The translations under genes were made by a program, and so were the position numbers. This document shows, piece by piece, positions 4,740 through 45,681 of a stretch of 53,204 nucleotides of DNA (position 1 is the stretch's first letter; each line of letters opens with the position of its first letter). This DNA is from a virus, in IMG/VR virus record IMGVR_UViG_3300020333_000061, positions 1-53,204 of that record, one strand, 5' to 3'. The notes beneath the pieces were generated by a model. The model had not been told where the DNA came from, searched no databases, and was given only the letters and a program-made list of their open reading frames with translations.

Positions 4740-4744
4740 ATATT

Positions 4745-30491: not shown

Positions 30492-31099
30492 AAGATGAAA
30501 AGTATTGGGGTGAAGCTCCTATTAAAAAAATACCTAGTAAAAAACGAGGTGGTGAAGGCGATTATAAACATATAGCAGTAATTGAAAATAAAATTTATTT
30601 TTATGCAGGAGTAAATCGCGATAGTGCAGTAGAACTTAATAAGAAAATTGGAGAGTTACAATCTAAAAGTTTTACTTTAGCTAATAACTTAGATATTGAA
30701 CCGCCAGGTATGCATTTATATATAAATTCTGGAGGAGGGTCGATTACATCAGGTATTTCATCAATGGATACTATACTGAGATGTAAAGTTCCTGTTTATA
30801 CCTATGTTGATGGTTTTGCTGCAAGTGCTGCAACATTCCTTTCAGTAGTAGGTCATAAAAGATTTATGAGTAGACATTCTTATATGTTGATTCATCAGTT
30901 ATCTACAAATTTTTGGGGTAAATATTCTGAGTTCGAAGATGAGAAACAGAATCTTGATTTGATGATGGAAACTATTAAAAGGGTGTATAAGAAACATACA
31001 AAAGTTCCAATGAGAAAAATAGATGAAATTCTGAAACATGATTTGTTGTGGGATGCTAAAACTTGTTTAAAGTATGGATTAATTGATGAGATAATTTAA
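30488..31099 (+). CDS. ClpP-like serine protease
   Basis: ClpP-type peptidase subunit. The Ser-His-Asp triad can be placed: Ser113 in GFAASAATFL, His136 in YMLIHQLS, and Asp185 in LKHDLLWDAK, followed by KYGLIDEI as in bacterial ClpP. LYINSGGGSITSG (78-90) is the oxyanion-region loop. Length (203 aa) is normal, with a slightly extended basic N-terminus (KKIPSKKRGG). Possible roles are degrading host proteins with host ClpX/ClpA, or processing phage proteins; position among replication genes favours an early-to-middle role. It shares bases with the genes on both sides. Confidence 0.9.
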   Translation: MKDEKYWGEAPIKKIPSKKRGGEGDYKHIAVIENKIYFYAGVNRDSAVELNKKIGELQSKSFTLANNLDIEPPGMHLYINSGGGSITSGISSMDTILRCKVPVYTYVDGFAASAATFLSVVGHKRFMSRHSYMLIHQLSTNFWGKYSEFEDEKQNLDLMMETIKRVYKKHTKVPMRKIDEILKHDLLWDAKTCLKYGLIDEII

Positions 31100-31749
31100 T
31101 GTTTTATTGTTTCGGAGACAGTTGGGGTGAAGGTGCTGAGTTAAAGGAAGATGAAAAACCATTTGTTCATTGGTTAGCAAAAGATTTAGATAAATCATAT
31201 AAAAATTTTTCATATGGAGGCAATTCATATCCCAAGATAGTATCTCAGATATTTGATAACATTCATAAGATTAATAATAAAGATATTGTATTAATAGTTA
31301 TTCCACCCGATATACGATGGATGGAAATGGAAGGAAATAGTGGATTTAGATCTTGGACAGTCGATGATGATCCAGAACGATATATGTCTTGGTTAGGTAA
31401 TAAAACAAAAGTTTGGTTTAGATACCACTCTAGCCTATTTACATATACTATTCAATCAGCATTAGATAGTATTGGTTGTAAGTATTTATTTATGCATAAT
31501 TATGGTGGTGAATTTATTATAGACCGTAGATTTAAATCTTTAATTAATGTTGATAATTTTTTAAATATTAAAAAGTCTTTGACTACATTATTAGGTGGAA
31601 ATGATTATTATGAATCTTGGAATTTAAAATCAGATGGTCCAACCACGAAAATTAAGGGGAAAAGTATATATTTTGAAGGAAATGATGTACACCCAAATGA
31701 ATTAGGACATAAGAGAATTGCAAAATTAATTAAAGATAAGATAATATAA
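31099..31749 (+). CDS. SGNH-hydrolase-like protein 1 (216 aa)
   Basis: The GDSL/SGNH lipase-esterase superfamily removes acyl groups from lipids, sugars or peptides. Block I is YCFGDSWGEGAEL with the putative nucleophile Ser8; a Gly/Asn block is FSYGGNSYPKI, and the C-terminal dyad is NDVHPNELGHKRIAKL with Asp196 and His198. Length is typical of the fold. There is no signal peptide, so it probably acts in the cytoplasm. The ATG overlaps the ClpP stop, and the stop overlaps the next ATG (TAATG). This is the first gene of the accessory block. The substrate is unknown. Confidence 0.7.
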   Translation: MFYCFGDSWGEGAELKEDEKPFVHWLAKDLDKSYKNFSYGGNSYPKIVSQIFDNIHKINNKDIVLIVIPPDIRWMEMEGNSGFRSWTVDDDPERYMSWLGNKTKVWFRYHSSLFTYTIQSALDSIGCKYLFMHNYGGEFIIDRRFKSLINVDNFLNIKKSLTTLLGGNDYYESWNLKSDGPTTKIKGKSIYFEGNDVHPNELGHKRIAKLIKDKII

Positions 31750-32822
31750 TGAAACCTCTTTTATCACAATGTTTAATAGGTCATAGATTTGGAAAGATAA
31801 ATGTAAGTAAGGATTATTTTCTTTGTTGTGGGACTCCAGCAATAGGAAATTATGATGTAGATGGTGGGTTTAAGGAATTTTGGAATTCTAAAAAATATAA
31901 TGATTTAAGAAAAGAGTTAAAATATAATTTAGAAGGACAGAATGAAAAATGGAATGGTGATTGTTTTGAATGTCCACATTATGCACAATTAATGATGTTG
32001 AATGAGAGTGGAGAAGTTATAGATGATTTACCTAGAAAAGGACCAAGTGAATTTCAATTTGAAGTAGGAAATCCATGTAATCATAGATGTGATTTTTGTT
32101 GGGGGTGGTCACATACAATGTTGAGTGAAGAAGGTCAATGGAATGGTTGGAAAGAGTGGGCAAAACAAATACTTGACTTGAAAACTTATGTTTCAATTAT
32201 TAATGATTTGAAAGAACTTGGTGGTTGTGAATTGATATCAATAAGTGGTGGTGGCGAACCATTTATTATACCAGATATTATGAAAATGATTGAACACACT
32301 AAAAAATTAGGTTTTAACCTTAAAATATTTACTAATTTTTCAAGGGTTAATTTTAAAGATATAGATAATTTTATTGAATGGGGGGTGGATAGGTTTGAGG
32401 TTAATATATCAGCAGGAACAGAAGAAACTTATTGTAAGGTAAGAAAATTAAAATCTAAGGATTGGAATTTACTTATTGATAATCTTACTTATTTAAATGA
32501 AAAAAGAAAAGAATTAAATTTATCATCACCCATTAAATATGTAGTTATTGTAACTAAAGAGAATATAGAAGAAATAGATGAAATTTTTGAATTGGCAATT
32601 AAACTTGGTTGTTGTTTTATTGATTTTAGAGATTTAGTTTCACAAGGAGTTTATAAGGGGGAAGATTTATTACCATTAGAAAAACAGGTTGAAGTGTTTA
32701 ATGAAAAGTTTTTTAAGAATATAAATAAACACGATTTTAAGGAAGTTAAAGATGAGTATTATTTTTATTCAGAAAGATTAAATATGGGAGTTTTTAATGA
32801 ATGTATTAGTTATAGGGGATAG
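31749..32822 (+). CDS. Radical SAM enzyme with SPASM-like N-terminal cysteines
   Basis: Radical SAM enzymes split S-adenosylmethionine with a 4Fe-4S cluster to start radical chemistry. The cluster motif is CNHRCDFC (Cys110, Cys114, Cys117), and ISISGGGEPF is the glycine-rich SAM-binding motif. Before it, residues 8-75 carry more cysteines: Cys8, FLCCGTPAIGNY with Cys26/Cys27, KEFWNSKKYNDLR, and CFECPHY with Cys72/Cys75. This looks like a SPASM/twitch auxiliary-cluster pattern that usually follows the core. The substrate cannot be deduced. It overlaps the sugar-kinase gene by 26 bases. Confidence 0.85.
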   Translation: MKPLLSQCLIGHRFGKINVSKDYFLCCGTPAIGNYDVDGGFKEFWNSKKYNDLRKELKYNLEGQNEKWNGDCFECPHYAQLMMLNESGEVIDDLPRKGPSEFQFEVGNPCNHRCDFCWGWSHTMLSEEGQWNGWKEWAKQILDLKTYVSIINDLKELGGCELISISGGGEPFIIPDIMKMIEHTKKLGFNLKIFTNFSRVNFKDIDNFIEWGVDRFEVNISAGTEETYCKVRKLKSKDWNLLIDNLTYLNEKRKELNLSSPIKYVVIVTKENIEEIDEIFELAIKLGCCFIDFRDLVSQGVYKGEDLLPLEKQVEVFNEKFFKNINKHDFKEVKDEYYFYSERLNMGVFNECISYRG

Positions 32823-33591
32823 CTGTGAGGACATTTTTATTTATGGAGATATAGAAAGAATAAGTCCAGAAGCACCAGTACCAGTTTTTAAACCAACACA
32901 TGAAGAAAAAAATGGTGGTATGGCTAGAAATGTTGCGGAAAATGTTGAAGCATTAGATATGCATATTCATACTGTAACAAATAAAAATAGTATTACAAAG
33001 ATACGATATGTAGAGAATCGATCTGGTCAAATGGTATTAAGGGTAGATGTACATGACCATTGTGAGAGAGTTGATGAGAGTTTATTAAAAGGACTTACAA
33101 TAAATAAATTTAAACACCCACCATTTGGATTTGGTTCAAGTACTGAGGATTATTATGATGCAATCATTATTTCAGATTATTGTAAAGGGTTTTTAGAAGA
33201 ATCTGATATTCAACATATTTGTGAAAATAATAAGAATGTATTTATTGATACTAAAAAGAAACTTGGTGAATGGATTAAAGACGCAAATTTTATTAAAATA
33301 AATGAATTAGAATATAAAAAGAACCATGAATTATTATCTGATGACGGATTTAAAGAAAAACTTATTGTTACATTAGGTAGTAAAGGTTGTAGATATAAAG
33401 GAGTGGAATATCCAGTAAAAGAAGTTCCAGTAAAAGATGTTAGTGGAGCAGGAGATACATTCATTGCAGGATTAGTTCGTGGTTATTTAGATACAAATAA
33501 TATAGAAAGTGCAATAGAATTTGCACAAGAGTGTACCACCCATGTAGTACAAAAACACGGAGTAGCAACAGTTAATTTAGAGGAGTTATAA
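32797..33591 (+). CDS. PfkB-family sugar kinase, HldE/RfaE domain I-like
   Basis: HldE domain I phosphorylates heptose 7-phosphate at C1 in LPS-heptose synthesis. The N-terminus VLVIGDSCEDIFIYGDIERISPEAPVPVF carries the RISPEAPVPV signature of that family. GGMARNVAENVEAL is the sugar-binding block, and VSGAGDTFIAGLVRGYL is the PfkB ATP/catalytic motif with the base Asp in GAGD. At 264 aa it is shorter than the bacterial domain (about 318 aa), mainly through loss after AVTN-type lid residues near 60. The nucleotidyltransferase half of HldE is absent here. The real sugar may differ. GGGAG lies 6 bases before the ATG. Confidence 0.85.
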   Translation: MNVLVIGDSCEDIFIYGDIERISPEAPVPVFKPTHEEKNGGMARNVAENVEALDMHIHTVTNKNSITKIRYVENRSGQMVLRVDVHDHCERVDESLLKGLTINKFKHPPFGFGSSTEDYYDAIIISDYCKGFLEESDIQHICENNKNVFIDTKKKLGEWIKDANFIKINELEYKKNHELLSDDGFKEKLIVTLGSKGCRYKGVEYPVKEVPVKDVSGAGDTFIAGLVRGYLDTNNIESAIEFAQECTTHVVQKHGVATVNLEEL

Positions 33592-33592
33592 A

Positions 33593-33838
33593 ATGAGTAC
33601 AAAACCAATGAAACCATTAGCCAAACCACAAAAACAAGTAGATTTGTCAAAAGCAGATACTTTGAAGTGTGATGAATGTGGTAATTATCTTTTTATTAAT
33701 TCATATGTAATAAAGAAGGTTTCTGCAATAATATCACCGACTGGTCAGGAAGTAATAGCGCCAGTTCAAGTGTATAGTTGTGGAAATTGTGGAGTGGTTC
33801 CAAAATTATTTACTGAGGGTACTGGGTTAGATTTTTGA
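33593..33838 (+). CDS. Small zinc-ribbon protein (81 aa)
   Basis: Two CxxC pairs, LKCDECGNY (about 24-32) and YSCGNCGVV (about 63-71), enclose a beta-rich segment, the pattern of a zinc ribbon. The N-terminus is Pro/Lys-rich (KPMKPLAKPQKQ). Similar small zinc-binding proteins occur in T4-like phages; their role is not known to me. A strong GAGGAG site lies 7 bases before the ATG. The stop overlaps the start of the next gene. Confidence 0.7.
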   Translation: MSTKPMKPLAKPQKQVDLSKADTLKCDECGNYLFINSYVIKKVSAIISPTGQEVIAPVQVYSCGNCGVVPKLFTEGTGLDF

Positions 33839-34389
33839 AAATATTAGCTTGTTTATCTGGAGGAGTTGAAAGTACTTATGGTGTATATAATTTATTACAG
33901 AATACAGACCATGAAATAGATATATTTCATTTGTATTTTAGAAATCATCCACGATATGAAGGTGAAACTGAAGCGTGTGAACACATTGTAAATTGGTTAG
34001 AAAGTAATACAAGAAAATTTGATTGGAAATCTGCTGACCTAAGTCATAGTGGCGTTGATGAAATTACACAACCACCACATTCATCAGATATATGTTATAC
34101 GATAGTAACTTCTGCGAATATTTCTATTGATGAAAAAGACTATGATGAGGTTAGATTCTTTATAAATAAAAAAGAGTGGGATTCCGCGATAGAAGATAGT
34201 ATTCCTACATTTGATCATCCATTTATGGTAAATTTATTTAATCTAATATTAAGTAGATTTCCTACAATTGATACTAAATTAGGTTTTGATAGAAATGTTG
34301 GTACGTTAAATAAAAAAGAAATATACGAAAAAATACCTGAGGAATTACGAAAATTTATTCATAGTAATGATAAGGAATATAATGTATAA
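33835..34389 (+). CDS. ATP-pyrophosphatase (QueC-like PP-loop) protein 1
   Basis: N-type ATP pyrophosphatases activate a carbonyl group by adenylation, as in QueC, NAD synthetase or tRNA modification enzymes. The PP-loop is CLSGGVESTYGVYNLL, with SGGVES at 8-13 where the family consensus is SGGxDS; the usual Asp is Glu12. EIDIFHLYFRNHPRYEGETEACEHI resembles the region after the loop in QueC. Length (184 aa) is short, and I do not see the C-terminal QueC zinc cysteines, so it may be a half-protein or a relative with another substrate. It starts with TTG overlapping the previous stop (TTGA) and overlaps the next gene by 8 bases. Confidence 0.65.
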   Translation: MKILACLSGGVESTYGVYNLLQNTDHEIDIFHLYFRNHPRYEGETEACEHIVNWLESNTRKFDWKSADLSHSGVDEITQPPHSSDICYTIVTSANISIDEKDYDEVRFFINKKEWDSAIEDSIPTFDHPFMVNLFNLILSRFPTIDTKLGFDRNVGTLNKKEIYEKIPEELRKFIHSNDKEYNV

Positions 34390-35797
34390 ACGAGTAGGTA
34401 ATGGACTTTTTGTTTTAGGTGGGAAGTATATTGATTTGTATAATGAAATTCAAATTAAAACTAAAAAGTTTGTAGAGGAAATTTTTGATGGAGAAGAATT
34501 ATGGACACCTTCTATATTATCTCTAGATAATACAGAAAAAAGTAATTATTTAGATTCTTTTTCTAATCAGGCTCAAATGATTCATAGACATTTAGATGGT
34601 TCTGATATAGGAATGAATTCACCAACTGTATGTTATAATTTATACGCATTATATGCAGATGATGTAGTCGATGGAAATAAAACTTATGTGATGACTGGTA
34701 AATGTAATAGGTTTGAAGAAGGCGAATTACATGATTTGACGAGGTTAATACAATTTACTGGTCAAGAGATTGTACATATAGGTAGTTATGATTATGTAGA
34801 GGATTGTTTTGTAAAATCGGTGAATTATGTAAAAAAAATATTTGATTATTTAGAATTAGATTATAAATTCGAAGTCGCGAATGATCCTTTTTTTGGTGCA
34901 AAATCTGAAGTTAAAAAACGAGCTCAACGAGTCAATGGGTCTAAAATAGAATATAAGTTATATTTTCCAAATGAAGATAAATATCTCCCAGTAGGATCAT
35001 TTAATTTTGTAGGTAATGCTTTTCATGATAGATTTAATATAAAAAATACTCAAACAGAGGATGTTGCTTCTGGTTGTTGGGGGTGGGGATTAGAAAGATT
35101 TATTTATGCATTGATAAGTCAAAAAGGAGAAAATGTTATTTTTAATTATCCTATTACGTTAGATGAAGATAAAAAACATGGATATAAGAATGTTATAGAG
35201 AATGAAGAAGGTTGGTACAGACTAGGTAAAGAAAACTGGTGGTTCGCTAAAAATAATATGGAAAACTATAAAGATATAGATGTAGATTTTAAAGATATCA
35301 AATTTGAAGTTATTACTGATTTAGATTCTTTAGATAGACGTAAAGTTGAAATTATATTGGGATTGAAGGAATGTAATAAAGATATAGGTTGGAAGTATAA
35401 TTGGACATGGAAAGATGCGGAGAATAGAATAAAAGATGGACATATTTTAAAAGCAGCATTTCATAATGGAATGGCAATTCATTGGGATTGGTATTTTACT
35501 AATAGTTTTATAATAAAAGATCACGATTCTTGGAGTGCCGTAGTTAATAAGTTACCTAAAGATTATCATTATTCAGCACATTGGTATTGTCATCCAAAAT
35601 ATAGAAGTAATAGAAAATATCCTACATTTATAAAAGATTTTATTTCAGCTTCATATAATTGGAGTTATAATAATGGTTACACTACTGATGTAAATTATCA
35701 AGATGGTTGGAATTGGAAATCTTTAAAGATTGTGAAAAAGATGGGACACGTTGGTTCTAATTGGATAGAAGAATTTGGTGAAATAAATGAATTATGA
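34382..35797 (+). CDS. Amino acid:[carrier protein] ligase-like domain joined to GNAT-like domain
   Basis: The first ~290 residues resemble class II aminoacyl-tRNA-synthetase-derived ligases of the Bradyrhizobium amino acid:[carrier protein] type: LHDLTRLIQFTGQEIVHIG (motif-2-like), NDPFFGAKSEV, LPVGSFNFVGNAF, and GCWGWGLERFIYAL (motif-3-like with Arg). Such enzymes load an amino acid on a carrier protein rather than tRNA. The last ~170 residues read like a GNAT acyltransferase: WYCHPKYRSNRKYPTFIKD, DVNYQDGWNWKSLKIVKKMG. I chose ATG 34382, with TAAGGA five bases upstream; an in-frame ATG at 34367 lacks a site. The product is probably an aminoacyl intermediate passed on to a small molecule. 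No carrier protein gene is visible in the window. Confidence 0.65.
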   Translation: MYKRVGNGLFVLGGKYIDLYNEIQIKTKKFVEEIFDGEELWTPSILSLDNTEKSNYLDSFSNQAQMIHRHLDGSDIGMNSPTVCYNLYALYADDVVDGNKTYVMTGKCNRFEEGELHDLTRLIQFTGQEIVHIGSYDYVEDCFVKSVNYVKKIFDYLELDYKFEVANDPFFGAKSEVKKRAQRVNGSKIEYKLYFPNEDKYLPVGSFNFVGNAFHDRFNIKNTQTEDVASGCWGWGLERFIYALISQKGENVIFNYPITLDEDKKHGYKNVIENEEGWYRLGKENWWFAKNNMENYKDIDVDFKDIKFEVITDLDSLDRRKVEIILGLKECNKDIGWKYNWTWKDAENRIKDGHILKAAFHNGMAIHWDWYFTNSFIIKDHDSWSAVVNKLPKDYHYSAHWYCHPKYRSNRKYPTFIKDFISASYNWSYNNGYTTDVNYQDGWNWKSLKIVKKMGHVGSNWIEEFGEINEL

Positions 35798-36461
35798 AAA
35801 TATCGTTTTATCGAATCTTAATATTTATCTTGACAATTATGAAAATGTATTTGGACATTCACACAGACCACTTGATTTAAATACAGAAAGATATAAAAAA
35901 AATATAGCATTTTTTGGATGTTCTCTCACATATGGTGAAGGAGTAAAAAATGAAGATACTTATCCTTCACAAATCCAAAAACTATCTAATGATGAATTCA
36001 ATTGTTTGAATTTTGGAGTTCCAGGTGGGAGTATAGATTTAGCTTATGTCATTTACAATAAAGTTATAAAGAAACTTGATATAGATTGTGTAGTTATTCA
36101 ATGGCCAAATTTTGACAGAAGAATGTATTTTAATGAAGGTGAATATGTTGGATATTATCCAAATGATGGAAAGGATATAACAAAACCTTTTAGTAAAATT
36201 GCTGATTGGGATTATGTTATTAGTAGAAATTTATCTAATTTACAAGTGATAAATTCATTTAAAAAAGTTTATAATTTATCACCGAAGATTGGACACGAAC
36301 AAAGAGAGTTATTTGAATTATATAATATTGATAATATTTTAAAGTTTCCATTCTATTTAGATACTGAAAATAAATACAGACTTAAAGACGGCCATCCAAA
36401 TGAATTATGGTATGATAATTATTCGAAATATTTGTATAAGGAATTAATAAGAGATGAATGA
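35787..36461 (+). CDS. SGNH-hydrolase-like protein 2 (224 aa)
   Basis: The SGNH pattern is clear: IAFFGCSLTYGEGVKNEDTY, with Ser in G-x-S near residue 46, FGVPGGSIDLAYVIYN as the Gly block, VVIQWPNFDRR in the Asn-block position, and DGHPNELWYDNYSKYL as the Asp-x-His dyad near the C-terminus. The G-x-S-x-T-x-G form differs from the GDSW of protein 1. No signal peptide. It overlaps its neighbours by 11 and 8 bases. An acyl-transfer or de-acylation role in the same pathway as its neighbours is inferred. Confidence 0.7.
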   Translation: MNYENIVLSNLNIYLDNYENVFGHSHRPLDLNTERYKKNIAFFGCSLTYGEGVKNEDTYPSQIQKLSNDEFNCLNFGVPGGSIDLAYVIYNKVIKKLDIDCVVIQWPNFDRRMYFNEGEYVGYYPNDGKDITKPFSKIADWDYVISRNLSNLQVINSFKKVYNLSPKIGHEQRELFELYNIDNILKFPFYLDTENKYRLKDGHPNELWYDNYSKYLYKELIRDE

Positions 36462-37089
36462 CAATGTTATAGCGTTTGGTTGTTCATTTACTTTCGGTGA
36501 TGAATTAGATGATTTACCAAATTGGTATGAAGATATGGAAGATGAGAGAAATTTTATGCCACTTAAATTAAAATATCATAAACCATCTAAAAAAAGTTAT
36601 CCATATATTCTTGGGAATTTATTAAGTTGTAAAGTTGAAAATTATGGTTGGAGAGGTGGTAGTAACGATAGAATCTTCAGAACATTTTTTGATCATATTT
36701 TGAACAATAAAAAGAAAAGTATTTATGTAATTCAATGGACATTTTCACATAGAACCGAAATTTGGTCTAACAAAGGTGGATTCTATAGTGGAATAACACT
36801 TAATTTGATTGAAGAAGATAAAAATGCTAAAGAGTATTATGAAGAATATTATGATGAAAATGATGTTAAACGTAGATTAGTGAGATATATGTGGTCGGTA
36901 GATGCTATATGTAAAGAATTTAATCAAAAGTTGTATCAATTTCATCCAATTGCAGATGAACAAATAGAAAATGAATTACCAAAGTCAGTTTTAGATACAA
37001 AGAAAATTTTAGAATTAGTAGATGGAAAAATACATCCTACTGAGCAAGGACATAAAAATTTAGCAAAATATATAAGAAGTTTAATATGA
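36454..37089 (+). CDS. SGNH-hydrolase-like protein 3 (211 aa)
   Basis: The N-terminus VIAFGCSFTFGDELDDL carries the putative nucleophile (Ser11). VENYGWRGGSNDRIFRTFFD is the Gly/Asn block, VIQWTFSHRTEIW lies in the third block, and DGKIHPTEQGHKNLAKYI gives the His near the C-terminus. VIQW is shared with protein 2, pointing to a duplication between these two neighbours. It overlaps protein 2 by 8 bases and protein 4 by 4 bases. Substrate unknown. Confidence 0.68.
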   Translation: MNDNVIAFGCSFTFGDELDDLPNWYEDMEDERNFMPLKLKYHKPSKKSYPYILGNLLSCKVENYGWRGGSNDRIFRTFFDHILNNKKKSIYVIQWTFSHRTEIWSNKGGFYSGITLNLIEEDKNAKEYYEEYYDENDVKRRLVRYMWSVDAICKEFNQKLYQFHPIADEQIENELPKSVLDTKKILELVDGKIHPTEQGHKNLAKYIRSLI

Positions 37090-37808
37090 ATTATAGAATT
37101 TCAGATTATCCATCTAATACGATTTGTAAATGGACAACTGCCGATTCTTTGGAGTTATTTGAGAAAAATACTATTAAGTATGGTAATGATAATAAATCAA
37201 TAAGACATTATAAAGAAAATCCAATAAAATATAGTTTTAACAATTATGGATTCAGGACACCAGATGATTTTAATGAAGTAGATGAAGGTAATGTTTTTCT
37301 TGGGGATAGTAATACAATGGGTACTGGACATCATTTAGAAAATACCTGGTCATATAAAATAAATCAAGATGTAGGTGGAAAGTTTTGGAATCTTAGTCAA
37401 GGTGGACATGGCATACAGACTGATTATAGATTATTATATGGATGGAAAGATCATTTAAAGATAAAAAATATATTTCATTTTACTATTAATCACTCTAGAT
37501 TTGAGTTTTTTAACAAAAGTGAATTACTTCAAATGAATAATTGGAGTGAGTTCAAACATAAAGATTTTTATTTAGATTTTCTTTGTGATGAAGGATATTG
37601 TGAATTTATAGAGGAAACTTATATTAATGCTATTAAAGGATTGTCAAAGGAAATTGGATGTAATTATTATTATGTAAAATTAGCGGAATCATTTTATGAC
37701 TATGATAAATCTACAGATGATTCATTGGAGGCACGAGATTTATCACACATGACGGTTAAATATCAAAATTGTATTTATGAAAAGTTTAAGGAGTTAAATG
37801 TTAAATAA
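37086..37808 (+). CDS. SGNH-hydrolase-like protein 4 (240 aa)
   Basis: NVFLGDSNTMGTGHHLENTW near residues 69-88 is the GDS block. FWNLSQGGHGIQTDYRLLYG is the Gly block, and FHFTINHSRFEFFN the third block. EARDLSHMTVKYQNCIYEKF may supply the Asp/His pair (D-L-S-H), a variant of the usual D-x-x-H. About 65 residues precede the catalytic domain, including FNNYGFRTPDDF, typical of phage and surface-glycan SGNH proteins. It overlaps the next gene by 11 bases. Confidence 0.62.
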   Translation: MNYRISDYPSNTICKWTTADSLELFEKNTIKYGNDNKSIRHYKENPIKYSFNNYGFRTPDDFNEVDEGNVFLGDSNTMGTGHHLENTWSYKINQDVGGKFWNLSQGGHGIQTDYRLLYGWKDHLKIKNIFHFTINHSRFEFFNKSELLQMNNWSEFKHKDFYLDFLCDEGYCEFIEETYINAIKGLSKEIGCNYYYVKLAESFYDYDKSTDDSLEARDLSHMTVKYQNCIYEKFKELNVK

Positions 37809-38378: not shown

Positions 38379-39977
38379 ATGAAAAGTACAGTAGTTAGTT
38401 TTGATTGGATCGCGTCAAGTGGATCACTAAAATTAACAGAAATAAATACAGATGTAAGTTTGGGTGGATATAGCCGTCCAGAATATGGAGTAGATTTTGA
38501 CGCTCTGGCACAGTATTGCTCAGATCAAAGTTTAACAGAAGTTAAAGTACATCACTCCGATCAAGCATATTATACAATAGATTGGATTTCTAATAGTATA
38601 ACATCTATATCAAATGAAGTCTTTGCAAAACTTTCATCAAGTCTTGCTACGCACGATATTTCTGCTTCAATATACCTAGATGAAAATAATTATGAGGATG
38701 GGTTAGATGAAATAGATAGTGGTACTACATTGGATTTGAGAGTAACTAGTTGTATAAATAGTAAATTAGATTATCATGCAGTTGATAAAGAAAATTTCGT
38801 AGATTTTGCAAATGGTATTGGTAGTGGAAGTTTACTGTCAGAAGTAGGATCATCTCAAATTACATCTAATAATGCTACAGGAGTTCCAGATTTTGTTTGG
38901 AAAGTACCCACTATGGATAGTGGAACTGGTTTATCATTTTATGAGTCTAGTGATAATAATAGTACTATATCCTCGTCAAAAGAGGGCGTAGCATTTGTTG
39001 AAAAATATTATCCACCTGATAATGATAAATGGGGATATTTTGCAGGAGATATTAGTTATAAAGTAGTATTGACGGAAGATGGTACCGTGATTCCAATTAG
39101 TAGTCATAGAAGTGAAGGTGAGAGAGTAGTTTCATTTAGTAGAGTATCAGAAGAAGATTACTCTAATAAAGATTTGGTATTACGGCCTAAATTAATACTT
39201 GCTGGTGTTTGTGGTGAGAGTACAGATATAACATTGGTAGATGGTAGTACAAAAACACCATTACAAATACATTCATCAAGTATTTCTGATAATTCAGATA
39301 GTGTTAAAACTGTACAAATTGATGATTTAAATTTGGATTCGTTTGAATATAATACACCAAGTACTAGACAAGGATCTTATACATTATATACAGGTAGTTT
39401 TAATTTTACAACTGGAAGTAACCACTTTATGTTTATTCCAAAATATAGTGAAAATTGTGTAACTATTGATAGTACTGTTTTTGATGGAGAAACATTAATA
39501 CCAGTTGAGATGCTTTCAGATAGTGGAAGTACTTGGCAAATAAAGAAGGCATCTGATGTAGTTGTAGGTGATAAATATTTAAGTTCAAGTATGGATAAGG
39601 GAACTGTAGGTAGTGTGGGTGATGCATCAAATCAAGTATTAGTACATCCATCAAGTACAAATCCTAAAAGTGATAATAGTGATATGTATTTTCAACGTAG
39701 TATGTTTTGTGGTGATATATTGACTTTAGCAGAAAATAAATTTTATACCATAAGTGAACCACACATTGGAGATAAGTTTGCCACTACAAGTGCTTCAAAC
39801 GCTGAGAAAAATTCTTATGTTTCTACTTCAAATCAACAATGGGCATTATTGAATCATAATAGTGTAAGTGGAACTACATATAATTGGTCTAATTATAGTA
39901 CCAACGTAGCACAGTATACTGAGAATATATTAACTCAAATGGTAGCATCATTCAGTTCTTCTTTGTGGGAGTATTAA
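38379..39977 (+). CDS. Ser/Asp-rich protein of unknown function, possible virion surface protein (532 aa)
   Basis: I do not recognise this protein. It is rich in Ser, Thr, Asp and Gly with short beta-type segments (for example SYTLYTGSFNFTTGSNHFMF) and no evident enzyme motif, a composition often seen in fibre, decoration or adhesin proteins. There is no signal peptide or membrane segment. It has its own 44-base leader with TTGGAG eight bases before the ATG, unlike the overlapped genes around it, so it may be expressed separately. It splits the accessory block into two runs. Confidence 0.45.
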   Translation: MKSTVVSFDWIASSGSLKLTEINTDVSLGGYSRPEYGVDFDALAQYCSDQSLTEVKVHHSDQAYYTIDWISNSITSISNEVFAKLSSSLATHDISASIYLDENNYEDGLDEIDSGTTLDLRVTSCINSKLDYHAVDKENFVDFANGIGSGSLLSEVGSSQITSNNATGVPDFVWKVPTMDSGTGLSFYESSDNNSTISSSKEGVAFVEKYYPPDNDKWGYFAGDISYKVVLTEDGTVIPISSHRSEGERVVSFSRVSEEDYSNKDLVLRPKLILAGVCGESTDITLVDGSTKTPLQIHSSSISDNSDSVKTVQIDDLNLDSFEYNTPSTRQGSYTLYTGSFNFTTGSNHFMFIPKYSENCVTIDSTVFDGETLIPVEMLSDSGSTWQIKKASDVVVGDKYLSSSMDKGTVGSVGDASNQVLVHPSSTNPKSDNSDMYFQRSMFCGDILTLAENKFYTISEPHIGDKFATTSASNAEKNSYVSTSNQQWALLNHNSVSGTTYNWSNYSTNVAQYTENILTQMVASFSSSLWEY

Positions 39978-39994: not shown

Positions 39995-40933
39995 GTGGAT
40001 TACATTAGAGATAATAAAGATAAACCATTCATATATAAAAAACCATTTGATTATACTGTAGAAATACATTTAACTCATATGTGCAATTTTTTTTGTAGTG
40101 GGTGTAGTCATTATTCCAATTATAAACTTAATGGTTATTTATCTACTGAAAGATTTAAACATTATCTTGAAACTTGGAGTGATAAATTTAATAAATTACC
40201 GTTGGAATTTCGTTTACTCGGTGGAGAGCCAACTCTACATAGAAATTTAGTTGAGCTTATTGAGTTATCAAGAAAGTATATGCCTGATAATAATATTCTA
40301 CTTTTTACAAACGGAACTTATTTACATAAACATAAAAATTTAAAAGATGTTTTAATTGATAATAAAATAGTTTTAAAATTAACAGATCATTCACAAGAAA
40401 AAAAGTATCGTGATAAAATAGATCCAATTAGAGAAATATTATTAAAGTGGTCAGATGAAGGATTAGATTATCGTTCATATGATTATTCAACCGATTTTGG
40501 TTTTTCATCTGAAGCTACGGATAAAGGTGGTGGTAGGGGAGATAATACAAGTATTTGGAGAAAGCAATATAAAGGAGATGGCGTAACCATGAGACCTTTT
40601 GAAGATAACGAACCAAAAAAGAGCTATGAAATTTGTTGTTGTAGTTGGGCAAAGGGTGGGATAGCAAATATTCAGTTGTATGAAAATAAATTATGGAAAT
40701 GTCAACATATTGCATATTTAAAAGATGTTTTAACAAAATTTGGATTACAGACACATCCAAAATGGACACCATACCTTAAATATAAACCTTTAAGTAGTAA
40801 TGTAACATTTGATGAGATGGTTAGTTGGATGAAAAGAGAAGAAGAAGATGTTTGTAATATGTGTCCTGCTTATGATGACAAACGAGAAACGGTTTTAGAT
40901 AAAGATGTATTTGGAGAACGAAGATATGCATAA
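39995..40933 (+). CDS. Radical SAM enzyme 2 (312 aa)
   Basis: The cluster-binding motif is CNFFCSGC (Cys30, Cys34, Cys37), preceded by VEIHLTHM as in many radical SAM enzymes. RLLGGEPTLHRNLVELI is the Gly-rich SAM-binding motif, and LLFTNGTYL follows. The C-terminal half has further cysteines: ICCCSWAKGG, LWKCQHIAYL and VCNMCPAY, likely an auxiliary Fe-S (SPASM/twitch) cluster. It starts with GTG, with AAGG six bases upstream. It overlaps the second ATP-pyrophosphatase by 8 bases, suggesting the two act in one pathway. Substrate unknown. Confidence 0.87.
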   Translation: MDYIRDNKDKPFIYKKPFDYTVEIHLTHMCNFFCSGCSHYSNYKLNGYLSTERFKHYLETWSDKFNKLPLEFRLLGGEPTLHRNLVELIELSRKYMPDNNILLFTNGTYLHKHKNLKDVLIDNKIVLKLTDHSQEKKYRDKIDPIREILLKWSDEGLDYRSYDYSTDFGFSSEATDKGGGRGDNTSIWRKQYKGDGVTMRPFEDNEPKKSYEICCCSWAKGGIANIQLYENKLWKCQHIAYLKDVLTKFGLQTHPKWTPYLKYKPLSSNVTFDEMVSWMKREEEDVCNMCPAYDDKRETVLDKDVFGERRYA

Positions 40934-41735
40934 TATTTTTTGGTGTGGTGGCATCGATTCCACTTATTTGGTTTGTAAGCATTTGATTATAAATAAAGAA
41001 CCAATTGAGACTTATTATTTAAATTTTGAATGTGATGGTTATTATAAACCTTTTCCACTAGGCAGAGATAGTAAAGAGGTAGAAGTTAAAGTTATGGAAA
41101 AGTTAAGGGAAATGATAATTAAACAATTTCCTTATACTGAAAAGTTATTTCCACCAACAATAATGATAGATGAATTTCCAATAAATAAAGAAATATATAA
41201 GAAACTTAAATTTTTACATGAAGAACATCAATATAGATATAGGATAATATCACAAGAGTTATATATGATACAATATTCATTGGATGAGAATAAAATATTT
41301 GAATATTCTCTTGAAGATGGAATGTCCCTTGGAGTGGACGTAGGATATTTACCGACTGCAAAATTATTAAAAGAAAATTTCACAGAAGATTTTACAATAT
41401 CAACAGAAAAAATTCCTGAGTTGGAAATTTTAAAAAATTTACATCTTCCACTGTTTGAAACTTGGAGAAAGGATATGGTTGAAGAATCAAGAAAATATGA
41501 TTTTACAAATATACTAGAGAATACTTGGTCTTGTAGGTGGCCAAAATCTAATGGAGATATTTGTGGAAAATTAGAGAAAAATGGGGATGGTTTTGATTGT
41601 ACACATTTTATGTATGTTGAATTTGATAAACAACCTCAGTCAGAGATTGAAGAAGGATTTGTACGTTATTATAAAGATAATGAGTACGAAATTATTAAAA
41701 GAAAAATAAATTATCACGATATATTAAATGATTAA
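40926..41735 (+). CDS. ATP-pyrophosphatase (QueC-like PP-loop) protein 2
   Basis: The PP-loop is FWCGGIDSTYLVCKHL, with CGGIDS at 7-12, where Cys replaces the usual Ser. Late in the protein, NTWSCRWPKSNGDICGKLEKNGDGFDC resembles the C-terminal zinc-cysteine region of QueC in order (TWSC...CG...C). Hence an adenylating enzyme acting on a carboxylate or amide is likely. At 269 aa it is longer than QueC (about 230 aa). I chose ATG 40926, with GGAGA eight bases before it; an upstream in-frame ATG at 40905 has no such site. It overlaps the radical SAM gene and the permease gene by 8 bases each. Confidence 0.65.
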   Translation: MHNIFWCGGIDSTYLVCKHLIINKEPIETYYLNFECDGYYKPFPLGRDSKEVEVKVMEKLREMIIKQFPYTEKLFPPTIMIDEFPINKEIYKKLKFLHEEHQYRYRIISQELYMIQYSLDENKIFEYSLEDGMSLGVDVGYLPTAKLLKENFTEDFTISTEKIPELEILKNLHLPLFETWRKDMVEESRKYDFTNILENTWSCRWPKSNGDICGKLEKNGDGFDCTHFMYVEFDKQPQSEIEEGFVRYYKDNEYEIIKRKINYHDILND

Positions 41736-42897
41736 AGATTATATAGTAAGTTTATTGATGGGATTTTCAGCAGGAGTTCCATTATTGATGACACTTTCTA
41801 TTCTACAGGCCTGGATGAAAGACTTTGGAATAGATTTGTCTATGATTGGTATATTTGGATTGGTGGGATTACCATATTCATTGAAGTTTACTTGGGCTCC
41901 ATTTTTGGATAGATTCTCATTACCATTTTTAGGTAGAAGAAGGGGTTGGTTATTATTAAGTCAAATTTTTATAATTTTAACTATGGTTGGAATATATTCG
42001 ATTGATATTTCCACTCAATTAATTCCTTTGGGAATGCTGTGTTTAATGTTATCATTCTTTTCTGCAACACAGGATATATTAGTAGATGCATATAGAAGAG
42101 AAAATGTGTCAGAACAACATTTACCTATGTCATCATCTTTATATGTTATTGGATATAGAGTTGGTATGGCAATAGTGGGTTCGTTGGGATTTATTTTATC
42201 TGATTATATGACATTTAATTTTGTATTTTTATGTTTATCGAGTTTAATGGGTGTTGGTATTATTACTACATTATTTTGTGATGAAGGTGATTATGTGGTT
42301 AAAGAAAGAGAATCAATAATAGAACCATTGTTAGATTATTTTCGTAAAAATAAAGCCATAGTTATATTATTATTTCTTTTTATGTATAAAATTGGTGATA
42401 TGTTAGCATTTTTTATGGGAACACCATATTATATGGATTTGGGATATACAAAATCTCAGATTGGATATATTAAATTTATTTCTACTTGGATGATTTTATT
42501 TGGAAGTTTTGTTGGTGGGGTTTTAATGGTCAAGTATAATAATATAATGAAAGGATTATTTTATTTTGGTTTGTTACAAATGATATCCACATTTGGATAT
42601 GTTATATTGGGTTGGGTAGAGCCGAGTCTTGTTTCACTTGGTATAATGTGGTCATTTGAAACCTTTTGTGCAGGATTAGGTATGTCAGTATTTATATCAT
42701 ATATTGCGTTACTTACTAATGTAAAGTTTACAGGAACACAATATGCCTTGTTGTCAAGTTTTGTTGCGATACCAAGAACTTTGTTTACTTCACAAACAGG
42801 ATTTTTAGTAGAGTCAATAGGTTGGGAATATTATTTTATATTTTGTACTTTACTTGCTATACCTGGATTAATATTACTGAAGTATTTAGATGAGTAA
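41728..42897 (+). CDS. AmpG-like major facilitator permease
   Basis: An inner-membrane transporter with about 11-12 hydrophobic helices. The N-terminus, LLMGFSAGVPLLMTLSILQAWM, and then IGIFGLVGLPYSLKFTWAPFLDR and LGRRRGWLLLSQ are the signature of AmpG, which imports anhydro-muropeptides from cell-wall turnover. FSATQDILVDAYRRE is also typical. At 389 aa it is shorter than E. coli AmpG (491 aa) but near the core length of the family. It overlaps the gene on each side by 8 bases, placing it inside the second biosynthetic run. It could import wall fragments or export or import the block's product. Transport direction and substrate are inferred only. Confidence 0.85.
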   Translation: MIKDYIVSLLMGFSAGVPLLMTLSILQAWMKDFGIDLSMIGIFGLVGLPYSLKFTWAPFLDRFSLPFLGRRRGWLLLSQIFIILTMVGIYSIDISTQLIPLGMLCLMLSFFSATQDILVDAYRRENVSEQHLPMSSSLYVIGYRVGMAIVGSLGFILSDYMTFNFVFLCLSSLMGVGIITTLFCDEGDYVVKERESIIEPLLDYFRKNKAIVILLFLFMYKIGDMLAFFMGTPYYMDLGYTKSQIGYIKFISTWMILFGSFVGGVLMVKYNNIMKGLFYFGLLQMISTFGYVILGWVEPSLVSLGIMWSFETFCAGLGMSVFISYIALLTNVKFTGTQYALLSSFVAIPRTLFTSQTGFLVESIGWEYYFIFCTLLAIPGLILLKYLDE

Positions 42898-43447
42898 CTA
42901 CATAGTAAAAACAATCTTTACCAAAAAAGAATGTGATAAAATTCTTGAAATGGATAGAAGTTTTGTTAACAGATTTTATCATACTAATACATCATTTAAA
43001 AAAACATGGTTAAATGGAACACTTAGACCAGCAGAAGATAATATTTTAGATGAGGTAGTAAACGCTGAAGATTGGGTGTATGATAGACTAATGGAAAATA
43101 AGGACATAGGAAATTTTGCAACTTGTGAAGGATTATGGCCGTTAATTTTTAAAGAGTATCAAGTAGGTGATGAGATTGGAATGCATTTTGATAATGCTTT
43201 TGGTATAAGGAGAGTGACAGTTTCTATATGTTTAAATGAGGATTATGAGGGTGGGTTTTTACAATTTCCAAGTTGGAAATTTGATATGGATACTGGAAAA
43301 GATAATTTTAAAATAGTAGATGTAAAATTAAAAGTAGGACAAATGGTACAATTTCCGTTAATGTTATTACATAGGATTGCACCAATTACAAAGGGTGTTA
43401 GAAAGCAATTGGTAACTTGGTATACGGGAGAAGTTTTAAATTGGTAG
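42890..43447 (+). CDS. 2OG-Fe(II) oxygenase 1 (prolyl-hydroxylase-like)
   Basis: Hydroxylates a substrate using 2-oxoglutarate, oxygen and Fe(II). The facial triad is His99 and Asp101 in GMHFDN plus His161 in LLHRIAP, and Arg171 in KGVRKQLVTW binds 2-oxoglutarate. VSICLNEDYEGGFLQFP is the typical strand before the second His. Length (185 aa) matches phage 2OG oxygenases. Such genes are common in marine T4-like phages. It sits between the permease and a second, related oxygenase, so the two may act in sequence. Confidence 0.88.
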   Translation: MSNYIVKTIFTKKECDKILEMDRSFVNRFYHTNTSFKKTWLNGTLRPAEDNILDEVVNAEDWVYDRLMENKDIGNFATCEGLWPLIFKEYQVGDEIGMHFDNAFGIRRVTVSICLNEDYEGGFLQFPSWKFDMDTGKDNFKIVDVKLKVGQMVQFPLMLLHRIAPITKGVRKQLVTWYTGEVLNW

Positions 43448-43453
43448 ATTTAA

Positions 43454-44029
43454 ATGATTGAAATAAGTGAATCAGTAATAGTTACAAAAGTTTTTAGTGA
43501 ATCAGAATGTCTTAAAGTGTTTGATTCTAAAGGCGAATTTGTTACAAGCCCACAAGATCAACAAGATGATGGAAAATATATAATTGTTCCAGATGAAAGT
43601 GATTATACTTTTGGTCATACTAATTTTCCATATTGGCATGTAGAATTTTCAGATGAAAACGAATGGTTTGTTAAAAAATTGAGAGAACACGTTACAGAGA
43701 TAAATGATAAATTTTTTAAATTTAAAAATAATGGTTTGTGGAATATGGGAATAAAGGAATATTCCGATCATCCAGACCATAATAATAGTTGTTCATGGCA
43801 TTTTGATGATATGAGTAGAGGTAAAAGGTTAGGATGTTCAACTACATTACATAATGCTATTGAAGGTGGGGAATTTGAAATTTTTAATGGTGAAAAAGTA
43901 TCTATAGATATAAAAGTGGGTGAAGTTGTAGTATTTCCTACTTGGCTTTTCCATAGAGTTAGCCCAGTACTTAAAGGAAAACGACTTTCACTGATCACTT
44001 GGATGAAGGGAGATCCCATTGATTTTTAG
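43454..44029 (+). CDS. 2OG-Fe(II) oxygenase 2 (prolyl-hydroxylase-like)
   Basis: The metal triad is His116 and Asp118 in SWHFDDMS and His167 in LFHRVSP; the 2-oxoglutarate Arg is Arg177 in KGKRLSLITW. The layout parallels the preceding gene (HFD...HR-x-x-P...K-G-x-R-x-x-x-x-T-W), so the pair probably arose by duplication, but they are clearly diverged. Unlike most of the block, it has short gaps (6 and 9 bases) instead of overlaps. Substrate unknown. Confidence 0.87.
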   Translation: MIEISESVIVTKVFSESECLKVFDSKGEFVTSPQDQQDDGKYIIVPDESDYTFGHTNFPYWHVEFSDENEWFVKKLREHVTEINDKFFKFKNNGLWNMGIKEYSDHPDHNNSCSWHFDDMSRGKRLGCSTTLHNAIEGGEFEIFNGEKVSIDIKVGEVVVFPTWLFHRVSPVLKGKRLSLITWMKGDPIDF

Positions 44030-44038
44030 GGTAGCGAT

Positions 44039-45016
44039 ATGATAAGTATAATATTTCATGATGTATTTAGTAGATTTCCAGAAGGAGTTGCTCATGAAGA
44101 TGAGGGAAAAGTTTTGTCCTACGAAGATTTTGGAAGAACAGCAAAATATTTGAAACAAAATAATATAGATTCATTTTCAGAAAATTTACCAGATGATTTA
44201 AAAGATAGAGGGGTGTATTGTTCTTCTAAATATGATAAAGTTATAGTAGTATCTCGTTCAATTGTGGTAGAGCAAATGTTATATAGTTTAGTTCAAAGTA
44301 ATGTTTATTATTATGGAGGACTTGCTATAACTAAAAATGTTGTTTTAGATTTTTTAAAAAGAAAGGGATTTAATGTACCAGATTTCGTTGTTAGTCCATC
44401 TACAAGAGAAGAGTTATTTGATAAGTTAGGTGATGATATTGTTGCAAAACCTATTGAGTATCTTACCCAGAAGGGTAAACTTGTACATAGAATATCTCAA
44501 AGTACAAAAAATATAGATTTAAATAGGTGGTTATTTCAAAAGTATGTAGGTAAAAAGATACAACCTTCATGGACACCTAGAGTTAACAGTTTATTTGGAA
44601 AAAATATTTCATATCATTCTAGTAAGTATTCTATAGCTGAGAATGAATCTTATGATAAAATTTCTAAACTTGAATATTATGCCAAAGCATGGTTAGAGGG
44701 TGCTAAATTTTTAACTACAAAGGTTGATGATGAAATATTAGATATATCGAAAAAAGTGTCAAAAGAACTTACTACACATTTTAGATGTGGAATTATTGGT
44801 ATAGATTTTGTAACTGATGATTTTAATATTCCCTGGATAGTAGAATGTAATTCTTCTAATGTTAGTTTACGGTCAGGAAAAAGTGTAGGATATCCAAAAC
44901 GACTCCAAGCAGTAGTTGATAAATTGGACTTAGACTATAAACCAGTTGATTCAATTTTAAATACACCTAAATTAATATCAGAAGCTTGTGTAAATTTTAT
45001 TGAGAATTTGATATGA
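44039..45016 (+). CDS. ATP-grasp ligase-like protein
   Basis: ATP-grasp enzymes join a carboxylate to an amine or thiol through an acyl-phosphate. The C-terminal half shows the fold's metal-binding strands: FRCGIIGIDFVTDDFNIPW and VECNSSNVSLRSGKS (Glu and Asn as Mg ligands). Upstream, KNVVLDFLKRKGFNVPDFVV and DDIVAKPIEY fit the lid and ATP-binding Lys. The N-terminal 100 residues look like a separate substrate domain. This RimK-type arrangement (325 aa) suggests peptide-bond or amide formation, which fits the amino-acid ligase and oxygenases in the block. It overlaps the next gene by 4 bases (ATGA). Confidence 0.75.
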   Translation: MISIIFHDVFSRFPEGVAHEDEGKVLSYEDFGRTAKYLKQNNIDSFSENLPDDLKDRGVYCSSKYDKVIVVSRSIVVEQMLYSLVQSNVYYYGGLAITKNVVLDFLKRKGFNVPDFVVSPSTREELFDKLGDDIVAKPIEYLTQKGKLVHRISQSTKNIDLNRWLFQKYVGKKIQPSWTPRVNSLFGKNISYHSSKYSIAENESYDKISKLEYYAKAWLEGAKFLTTKVDDEILDISKKVSKELTTHFRCGIIGIDFVTDDFNIPWIVECNSSNVSLRSGKSVGYPKRLQAVVDKLDLDYKPVDSILNTPKLISEACVNFIENLI

Positions 45017-45681
45017 AAAAATTAAATAAAATATATGATTTAGAAAAACTACAAATAGATAGAAAGTTTGTAGAAGAAAGATTTAAGTATGAGGATGGTG
45101 CTTTTGGACATTGTATATCATTACCGAGTATTTATGAGATAGCAGAATCACATAAAGAGCATCATAATAATGTACCATTGAGGGGAGTGTTAGATTATAC
45201 ACCATATTTCAAAGAAATTTTTGATAGTTTTGAAACAGAGATAACTGGATTTAGATTGTTGAGAAGAAAAGCACATTCATCTTATGGATTACATGAAGAT
45301 ACTGATATTGGTGAGGATGTAAAAAGAGTTCAAATACCCATTATTACAAATGATGATTGTTGGTTGGCGGCAACGGATTTAGATTATATACCAGAAGATA
45401 TTAGATTACTCTATGAAAAAGATGGAATAAAGAATGGTATCAACTGGACGGATGAAGTTCCTTATGATAAAGATGGTACTGCATTCAAGAACTTTAAAGA
45501 AAGATTTAAAGGACTCTATACATTGGTGCAATTCAAACCTGGAGTAATGTATCACGTTACATTTGCGAAGAAAATACATGGTTTATTTAATGAAGGTGAT
45601 ACAGATAGAATTACATTATTAATTGATGTAAAGGTAAATGATTGGTTGCTAGAATTTATTGAAGGGTTTGAATATTTTTAA
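45013..45681 (+). CDS. 2OG-Fe(II) oxygenase 3 (aspartyl/asparaginyl beta-hydroxylase-like)
   Basis: AspH-family enzymes hydroxylate Asp, Asn or related residues. The motif FRLLRRKAHSSYGLHEDTD provides His94 and Asp96. RVQIPIITND is the strand that follows in this family, and KIHGLFNEGDTDRITLLIDV gives His189 and the 2-oxoglutarate Arg199. AspH uses a His-x-Asp...His layout of this kind. Length 222 aa. It is the last gene of the accessory block, overlapping the ATP-grasp gene, with gp62 starting 26 bases later. The target may be a free amino acid, a peptide or an amide made in the block. Confidence 0.8.
   Translation: MKKLNKIYDLEKLQIDRKFVEERFKYEDGAFGHCISLPSIYEIAESHKEHHNNVPLRGVLDYTPYFKEIFDSFETEITGFRLLRRKAHSSYGLHEDTDIGEDVKRVQIPIITNDDCWLAATDLDYIPEDIRLLYEKDGIKNGINWTDEVPYDKDGTAFKNFKERFKGLYTLVQFKPGVMYHVTFAKKIHGLFNEGDTDRITLLIDVKVNDWLLEFIEGFEYF

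Follow-up and report, generated by a model that had tools for sequence, protein, structure and literature searches.

A hypervariable cargo site next to gp62 in marine T4-like phages, with a co-inherited group of enzyme genes

A group of marine T4-like phages has a hypervariable cargo site in the interval between the ClpP and Zn-ribbon genes and gp62, which holds mosaic enzyme cassettes in some of its members; six or seven of the cargo genes form a co-inherited module, and the remainder is mosaic. We assign a probability of about 95% to this reading, that is, a cargo site plus co-inheritance of the module parts. The locus lies in a stretch of viral DNA of 53,204 nucleotides (IMG/VR record IMGVR_UViG_3300020333_000061; hereafter the window), and its interval was compared in a sample of 70 distinct related IMG/VR loci, labelled L003, L088 and so on. 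It is already known that T4-like phages carry large glycan-type cargo; our literature searches found no paper that describes this locus, its site or the aminoacylation module.

The site is delimited and marked by the following genes:

29565..30491, plus strand: gp44, large subunit of the sliding-clamp loader, left anchor (phrog_168, E 2e-79)
30488..31099, plus strand: ClpP-type protease, bordering the site on its left in the clade of the window (PF00574, 4e-30)
33593..33838, plus strand: Zn-ribbon protein of 81 aa, resident gene of the site (weak zinc-ribbon Pfam matches and synteny)
45708..46133, plus strand: gp62, small subunit of the clamp loader, right anchor (phrog_225, 'clamp loader of DNA polymerase', E 1e-17)

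ClpP and 18 ORFs spanning 31099-45681 separate gp44 from gp62. The preliminary description of the window had identified both clamp-loader genes, and these profile matches agree with it; a misassignment of gp62 is rejected by the phrog_225 match. In empty-site relatives, gp62 is close to gp44, ClpP and the Zn-ribbon gene, so that both the profile match and the linkage expected of a T4-type gp62 were found. The overlaps between genes had also been taken as evidence for one pathway. About two thirds of the gene junctions in 31099-45681 do overlap, but the core genes flanking the block overlap to the same degree, and the overlap is therefore not special to the block. Scans for promoters, terminators and TATAAATA gave signals at chance level.

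The interval is shorter than 1 kb in 40 of the 70 loci, where it usually holds the Zn-ribbon gene alone, and 1.3-15.6 kb long in the 30 filled loci. The Zn-ribbon gene, which the preliminary description had missed as the site's resident, occurs in every one of the 30 filled loci and in most of the empty ones, and ClpP adjoins Zn-ribbon/gp62 in the empty-site loci. As had been suggested, the block is inserted relative to close relatives: empty sites of 446-726 nt occur in relatives whose gp62 is 77-85% identical to that of the window. Because near-empty loci (40) stand beside filled ones (30), the Zn-ribbon/ClpP-gp62 interval is a hypervariable cargo site and not one 17-gene pathway. What looked like an odd 15-kb insertion is thereby a single site that can be defined and then compared, in its empty and its filled state, among many marine T4-like phages.

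The variable cargo of the window, together with its sugar kinase, is as follows:

31099..31749, plus strand: SGNH-like hydrolase 1 (SGNH1), variable (PF13472 1e-4, under the cutoff)
31749..32822, plus strand: radical SAM/SPASM-like protein 1 (rSAM1), variable (PF04055 2e-18)
32797..33591, plus strand: HldE/PfkB-type sugar kinase (PF00294 1e-19; phrog_8133 2e-84; TIGR02198 3e-37)
33835..34389, plus strand: PP-loop ATP pyrophosphatase 1 (PPloop1, QueC-like), optional partner of the aaRS-GNAT gene (phrog_1550 1e-4)
35787..36461, plus strand: SGNH-like hydrolase 2 (SGNH2), variable, in an exchanged tract and 100% identical in L003 (motif alignment)
36454..37089, plus strand: SGNH-like hydrolase 3 (SGNH3), variable, in the exchanged tract (motif alignment)
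37086..37808, plus strand: SGNH-like hydrolase 4, variable, also in L088/L161 and 64% identical in L088 (motif alignment)
43454..44029, plus strand: 2OG-Fe(II) oxygenase 2 (2OG2), variable (phrog_61 2e-15; under the Pfam cutoff)
44039..45016, plus strand: ATP-grasp-like ligase, YheC/D- or RimK-like, weak, variable (PF14398 2e-4, under the cutoff)
45013..45681, plus strand: aspartyl/asparaginyl hydroxylase-like protein (2OG3), variable (through its L174 relative only)

Cargo content differs widely among loci. SGNH1 (missing from most filled loci), rSAM1, PPloop1, SGNH2, SGNH3, the ATP-grasp gene at 44039, 2OG2 and 2OG3 are optional genes; PPloop1 has an internal deletion in L003 and is absent from L088, and the aaRS persists where PPloop1 is lost. 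The kinase occurs in 14 of 30 filled loci, more than any other cargo gene to the left of the Zn-ribbon gene. Enzymes found in addition in other versions of the cargo are a FabA-like dehydratase, a PLP decarboxylase, an AMP-ligase or an AdoMet decarboxylase; L003 contains GT25 enzymes, glycosyltransferases occur in some relatives, and in many relatives the cargo is of glycan type. With at least seven genes optional, a single 17-gene pathway is rejected; what survives of the earlier proposal of one pathway gained or lost as a unit is the co-inheritance of six or seven genes.

The domain calls of the preliminary description were largely upheld. Both radical SAM proteins, the HldE-type kinase, the PIG-L deacetylase, the AmpG-like permease and the aaRS-like domain were recovered by profile, and the calls support functions of the activation, coupling, hydroxylation, deacylation and transport type. 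The kinase scores 128.6 bits with TIGR02198 against an equivalog cutoff of 345 bits, which makes it a related kinase rather than a member of HldE. The four SGNH-like calls comprise one weak Pfam match, the others being made through a G-[DC]-S motif and a C-terminal His that are conserved in a 12-protein alignment. Among the three 2OG oxygenases, 2OG1 is called by Pfam, 2OG2 by phrog_61, and 2OG3 only through the 60%-identical L174 relative, which exceeds the PF05118 cutoff (7e-6). Both PP-loop proteins have weak QueC-like profile matches; PPloop2 is itself weak and is supported through its L124 relative, which exceeds the Pfam QueC cutoff.

One tract of the window is shared without change with L003:

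35579..38135, no strand: identical tract of 2,557 nt (flanks 78-88% identical)

Full identity over 2,557 nt within flanks of 78-88% identity marks the stretch from SGNH2 to PIG-L as the product of a recent exchange by recombination. This swap, the PPloop1 deletion and the wide variation of cargo would also be expected if there were no coherent pathway and the site were a recombination hot spot that gathers unrelated single-gene morons, partly as filler DNA. Sullivan et al. (PMC3037559) raised the question of whether the LPS genes of cyanophages have a function or are 'stuffer DNA', and left the status of such glycan-type cargo open. However, we consider this explanation unlikely, since the following six genes keep a common order:

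37798..38334, plus strand: PIG-L family Zn-dependent deacetylase, conserved unit (PF02585 4e-17)
38379..39977, plus strand: 532-aa protein with a predicted N-terminal permuted ATP-grasp (GspS-like) and a Hint (intein-like) domain, core module (profile and AF2/Foldseek)
39995..40933, plus strand: radical SAM protein 2, position kept in five loci (PF04055 2e-8)
40905..41735, plus strand: PP-loop protein 2 (PPloop2, QueC-like) (alignment with invariant G-x-D-S-T and Cys residues)
41728..42897, plus strand: AmpG-family MFS permease, conserved unit (TIGR00901 5e-116)
42890..43447, plus strand: 2OG-Fe(II) oxygenase 1 (2OG1), conserved unit (PF13640 9e-8)

The order is the same in the window, L003, L088/L161, L170 and L173, five loci with cores differing by up to about half of their residues; in two of the five phages, gp62 is only 49-57% identical to that of the window. 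Between L170 and the window, the MFS permease is 91% and PIG-L 81% identical, far more than gp62 (about 57%), and the unit has therefore moved between diverged phages. A further association involves this gene:

34367..35797, plus strand: class-II aaRS-like domain fused to GNAT, core module (PF00587 3e-9; PRK07080 5e-27)

All complete intervals with aaRS-GNAT (13 loci) also hold a 38379-type gene, and minimal loci contain only this pair plus 1-3 small genes between the Zn-ribbon gene and gp62. The dN/dS values of module genes are well below 1 (0.14-0.59, lowest for MFS at 0.14-0.17), and aaRS-GNAT and 38379 evolve faster than the core genes. Conserved gene order and purifying selection therefore argue for a function of the cargo.

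As for the earlier expectation on synteny, aaRS-GNAT and the MFS gene were found at the gp44-gp62 cargo site only, but distant PPloop2-like genes (40-47%) also occur just outside the site, beside a glycosyltransferase. The metal motifs of PIG-L, AHPDDE and HPHH, are intact and kept in four homologues. Radical SAM 2 keeps an ordinary CxxxCxxC, and a relative in cyanophage S-SCSM2R is located among glycosyltransferases and 2OG oxygenases. A deazaguanine (QueE/QueC) pathway finds no clear support in the profiles. The permease scores 387.8 bits against the 350-bit cutoff of TIGR00901, which places it in the subfamily, and is under the AmpG equivalog cutoffs. The only relatives found that bear on the host were Desulfobacterota-type MAGs at 44-50%, too weak to name a host. 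Six INPHARED records with MFS matches appear to be bacterial DNA within phage records.

In the 34367 protein, the aaRS-like domain covers residues ~1-300 and GNAT residues ~311-471. The ligase half of the fusion proposed earlier is confirmed by its Pfam match, and the GNAT half is supported through a 30%-identical L152 relative (PF00583 2e-6). By sequence, the aaRS-like part matches PDB 3mey (1e-14) and also 3w3s; the best PDB match of the AF2 model is 4h2w (E 2e-16), and by fold the part is closest to glycine:[carrier protein] ligase. Its 94.8 bits with PRK07080 (cutoff 357) make it a relative, not a member, of that curated family. The residues of the Zn site and motifs 2/3 (C89, E134, C237, R115, E117, R244) are invariant in six homologues and align with archaeal SerRS 3w3s; C89, E134 and C237 correspond to the Zn ligands of the amino acid:[carrier protein] ligase family. 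Homology is restricted to the catalytic domain, residues ~1-300, with no tRNA-binding domain, and the fold best matches amino acid:[carrier protein] ligases; a true tRNA synthetase is therefore rejected as the main reading. A degenerate-pattern scan found no cellular aaRS-GNAT relative, and 198 genomes from the phylum to which L179, a Desulfobulbus MAG, belongs gave only two weak matches, each covering part of the protein.

The nature of the 38379 protein had been missed. Its Hint domain is found by profile (BIL/Hint 6tmm, 5e-10), and PT-HINT is above the cutoff in the relatives from L009 and L012. The C-terminal His-Asn needed for self-processing is present in L009/L034/L080 and absent from the window's protein, and self-processing of the latter is therefore doubtful. 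Foldseek matches of the AF2 model (pTM 0.73) are 6y75 (3e-5), which supports the Hint domain by fold as well, E. coli GspS 2ioa (2e-4) and YgiC 7uka (1e-3). Pfam and PDB sequence searches gave no GspS-type match, and the GSP_synth family search returned no loci for alignment; the N-terminus is thus predicted to be a permuted ATP-grasp by fold rather than by significant sequence similarity.

These parts suggest a chemistry in which an amino acid is attached to an amino sugar, with a role in altering the envelope of the infected host; we propose this tentatively, its chance being a little short of even. In this scheme, adenylation of a small amino acid by the aaRS-like domain would be followed by its transfer to a thiol, either of CoA or of a host carrier protein. 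PIG-L would deacetylate an N-acetyl amino sugar, and amide bonds to the freed amine would be made by the GNAT of the fusion and by the ATP-grasp ligase. Radical SAM, PP-loop and 2OG enzymes might then tailor the conjugate, and transport of the sugar or of the conjugate through the inner membrane would fall to the AmpG-like permease. Most probably all this would serve to alter the envelope glycan of the infected cell, for example against superinfecting phages; an envelope change was also proposed for other marine T4-like phages that carry glycan cargo.

Alternatively, the product may be a small, soluble compound of thiol-cofactor-like, siderophore-like or antibiotic type, exported or used in the cell. 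A deacetylase, an aaRS-like ligase and a GNAT together follow a scheme similar to that of mycothiol synthesis, which PMC2922099 mentions; the permease has a weaker match to RhtX/FptX siderophore transporters, and the additional enzymes of other cargo versions would fit as well. However, the similarity of PIG-L to MshB is distant (E 0.007), no NRPS/PKS domain was found in the cargo proteins searched, no carrier protein (PF00550) was found in the window or ten related records (11 in all, every one a fragment), and glycan-type cargo is frequent in relatives, so that we regard a soluble product as distinctly improbable. We hold it very unlikely that the enzymes modify the phage's own parts, either phage DNA or a virion protein, for which the Hint-bearing 38379 family may be a candidate: acylation of phage DNA by Mom-type GNATs is known (PMC7824862), and the 38379-type relatives in L012 and L030 have Hint domains plus additional C-terminal sequence, but the 38379 N-terminus is predicted to fold as a ligase, not a fibre, and no base-hypermodification genes were seen among the profiled genes of the window, which is a fragment.

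Beyond envelope modification by an aminoacylated sugar, a stronger version, which we rate as rather doubtful, is that of a mobile phage-borne module whose tRNA-independent activator-GNAT, GspS-like/Hint ligase, PIG-L, PP-loop, radical SAM and permease would yield an amino-acyl conjugate unlike known phage products. If true, the phages would supply infected cells with a phage-encoded chemistry for coupling amino acids. With only two genes, the pair of aaRS-GNAT and ATP-grasp/Hint offers a target small enough to be expressed.

Among known systems, the LPS/glycan clusters, hyperplastic regions and host recognition cluster of T4-like cyanophages and pelagimyophages (P-SSM2, S-SSM7, S-SM2; PMC3037559, PMC7029224) likewise place large variable enzyme cargo at fixed positions in a T4-like core, and share with this site an HldE-type kinase, 2OG oxygenases, radical SAM proteins and GT25 (here in relatives). 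However, they lie near hli03/phoH or between VrlC and gp14, not between gp44/ClpP/Zn-ribbon and gp62, and the window's block, which includes an AmpG permease besides aaRS-GNAT and ATP-grasp/Hint, has no glycosyltransferase, the kinase being its only cyanophage LPS-type sugar enzyme. In LysRS-MprF and VlmL/VlmA (PMC2922099), an amino-acid activator is joined to a GNAT-fold aminoacyl transferase, as in 34367; the aaRS of 34367, however, is of the SerRS/amino acid:[carrier protein] ligase type without a tRNA-binding module, and an MprF/Fem-like status of its GNAT is only putative. The amino acid:[carrier protein] ligases, class-II SerRS paralogues such as B. japonicum Bll0957 (PDB 3mey/4h2w), have the fold, Zn ligands and motifs of 34367 and similarly lack a tRNA-binding domain, whereas 34367 has a C-terminal GNAT, is phage-borne and has no adjacent carrier protein. 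The glutathionylspermidine synthetase/YgiC family has the predicted fold and an N-terminal E-x-N motif in common with 38379, which differs in its fusion to Hint and in having no significant sequence match. Finally, the mycothiol pathway employs the PIG-L enzyme MshB, the class-I aaRS-like MshC and the GNAT MshD. Unlike this pathway, the module has a class-II aaRS-like enzyme, additional enzymes and no glycosyltransferase that was seen, but the proposed order of chemistry is the same: an amino sugar is deacetylated and an amino acid is then attached.

The window is a single 53,204-nt fragment from an IMG/VR virus record. PHROGs profiles bear out the two clamp-loader genes named in the preliminary description, gp44 (29565..30491) and gp62 (45708..46133). 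Upstream of them lie genes for a DNA polymerase, a UvsX-like recombinase and a DnaB-like helicase, which marks this stretch as the replication part of a T4-like phage genome. The interval from gp44 to gp62 contains ClpP and 18 ORFs. Most of the domains originally assigned here stand at the level of Pfam, PHROGs or NCBIfam; the PP-loop, third 2OG oxygenase and SGNH calls are weak in the window and gain support from relatives or conserved motifs, and the ATP-grasp call on 44039 is still weak. Large ORFs lie within 82-13719, one of 1,625 aa at 4745-9622; those of 506, 940, 425 and 701 aa have no PHROGs match at 1e-4.

Relatives, all metagenomic fragments, were collected by queries with gp62, ClpP and the cargo genes. 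The loci (L numbers, with coordinates in each locus) were scanned with short conserved peptides, considering matches in up to 80 loci each, so that the counts describe samples rather than frequencies. Loci were taken as distinct when both ends were present and duplicates had been removed by gp62 sequence and gap. The distance from gp44/ClpP to gp62 is below 1 kb in 40 of the 70 distinct loci sampled, mostly with the Zn-ribbon gene alone; the HldE-type kinase and Zn-ribbon genes make up the interval in 2, and it measures 3.6-15.6 kb in 28. Each of the 30 filled loci contains the Zn-ribbon gene, and the kinase gene, where present, lies to its left. Most relatives with gp62 ~77-85% identical are empty (446-726 nt), and equally close others hold 6-8 kb; in the two nearest (gp62 97-98%), the cargo amounts to 11-15.6 kb. 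Beyond IMG/VR, gp44, a single 246-nt gene and gp62 follow one another in Microcystis phage Mel-JY01, and ~4.5 kb separates gp44 from gp62 in a 484-kb uncultured phage. No description of this locus was found in open-licence papers.

The hot spot reaches slightly beyond the site, with PP-loop/GT2 pairs between gp44 and ClpP or just past gp62. In these pairs, a gene resembling PPloop2, the second PP-loop gene of the window (~42% identity), precedes a GT2-type glycosyltransferase gene in the gp44-ClpP gap or directly after gp62 (L208 7965-10375; also L036, L195, L197, L201 and L205). Members of a clade further removed have another ClpP-like gene, 27-32% identical, just past gp62 (L163 6081-6641; L166, L168, L171, L197). 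L124 2452-3953 encodes a GNAT-QueC-like PP-loop fusion followed by an S-adenosylmethionine decarboxylase; L038 and L042 have PPloop2-like genes of similar length in an arrangement that appears to resemble it. L002 4419-4811, adjoining DNA polymerase and clamp genes, looks by eye like an HldE C-terminal-type nucleotidyltransferase and might act together with the HldE-type kinase; the window has no clear copy of this gene.

Among the loci found, the aaRS-GNAT gene (34367..35797) is located only at this site, its copies being as little as 29-30% identical. Each complete interval sampled that holds it also holds a 38379-type (ATP-grasp/Hint) gene. The minimal cargo has the order Zn-ribbon, aaRS-GNAT, 38379-type, one to three small genes, gp62 (L163, L166, L168, L169, L171). 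The order PIG-L, 38379, radical SAM 2, PPloop2, MFS permease, 2OG1 oxygenase is kept in the window, L003, L088/L161, L170 and L173. The MFS proteins of L170 and L173 share 86-91% identity with that of the window despite a gp62 identity of 49-57% (gp44 67% in L173), so the PIG-L-to-2OG1 unit has moved between diverged phages into the same site. Window 35579-38135 is an exact 2,557-nt match to L003, in which PPloop1 is internally deleted; its flanks are 78-88% identical. dN/dS is 0.14-0.59 for module genes, versus 0.05 for gp44/gp62 in the closest pair. The block had been proposed to form one pathway, and a rival reading takes the cargo as unrelated morons; synteny among relatives retains the PIG-L-to-2OG1 order and the aaRS-GNAT/38379 linkage, and leaves the remaining genes optional.

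As judged by its sequence, the 34367 protein is a paralogue of class-II aaRS enzymes. Residues C89/E134/C237, the catalytic Zn ligands in this family, show no variation among six homologues, nor do R115/E117/R244 of the motifs, and all align with archaeal SerRS. The best structural match of its AlphaFold model, of modest quality because of a pLDDT of 66 and a pTM of 0.52, is a glycine:[carrier protein] ligase. The protein scores under the cutoff of the curated carrier-protein-ligase family, and no carrier protein was found nearby in the window or ten related records, all fragments; it is thus a relative rather than a member of that family. For the GNAT at its C-terminus, support comes from a Pfam match in the L152 homologue. 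The L152 cargo (13858-17823) has both aaRS-GNAT (30%) and PPloop1 (76%), together with a PLP-dependent decarboxylase of ornithine/DAP type and a homologue of the FabA-like dehydratase found in L088, a set that hints at a different product.

The 38379 protein has no family match with its own sequence. A 24-sequence profile of its family matches Hint/BIL domains (6tmm, 5e-10), and relatives pass the PT-HINT cutoff. Its AlphaFold model (pLDDT 71, pTM 0.73) matches Hint domains, E. coli glutathionylspermidine synthetase (2e-4) and YgiC. Near the N-terminus, all family members have an invariant E-x-N motif, which reads EINTD in the window and is consistent with a permuted ATP-grasp; the Hint C-terminal His-Asn is absent from the window copy. 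The relatives in L009 (5328-7199) and L012 (5658-8432) have an additional Hint domain above the PT-HINT cutoff, beyond which the latter has a long repeat-like C-terminus.

From the established enzymology of these families, the cargo parts would fit an amino-acid coupling pathway: the aaRS-like domain would activate an amino acid, the fused GNAT or the ATP-grasp ligase would transfer it, PIG-L would expose an amine, radical SAM, PP-loop and 2OG enzymes would perform tailoring, and the AmpG-type permease would provide membrane passage. For the glycan cargo of pelagimyophages, the proposed role is a change of the envelope during infection (PMC7029224). Alternatively, the cargo in the window might make a soluble metabolite, or modify the virion or DNA.
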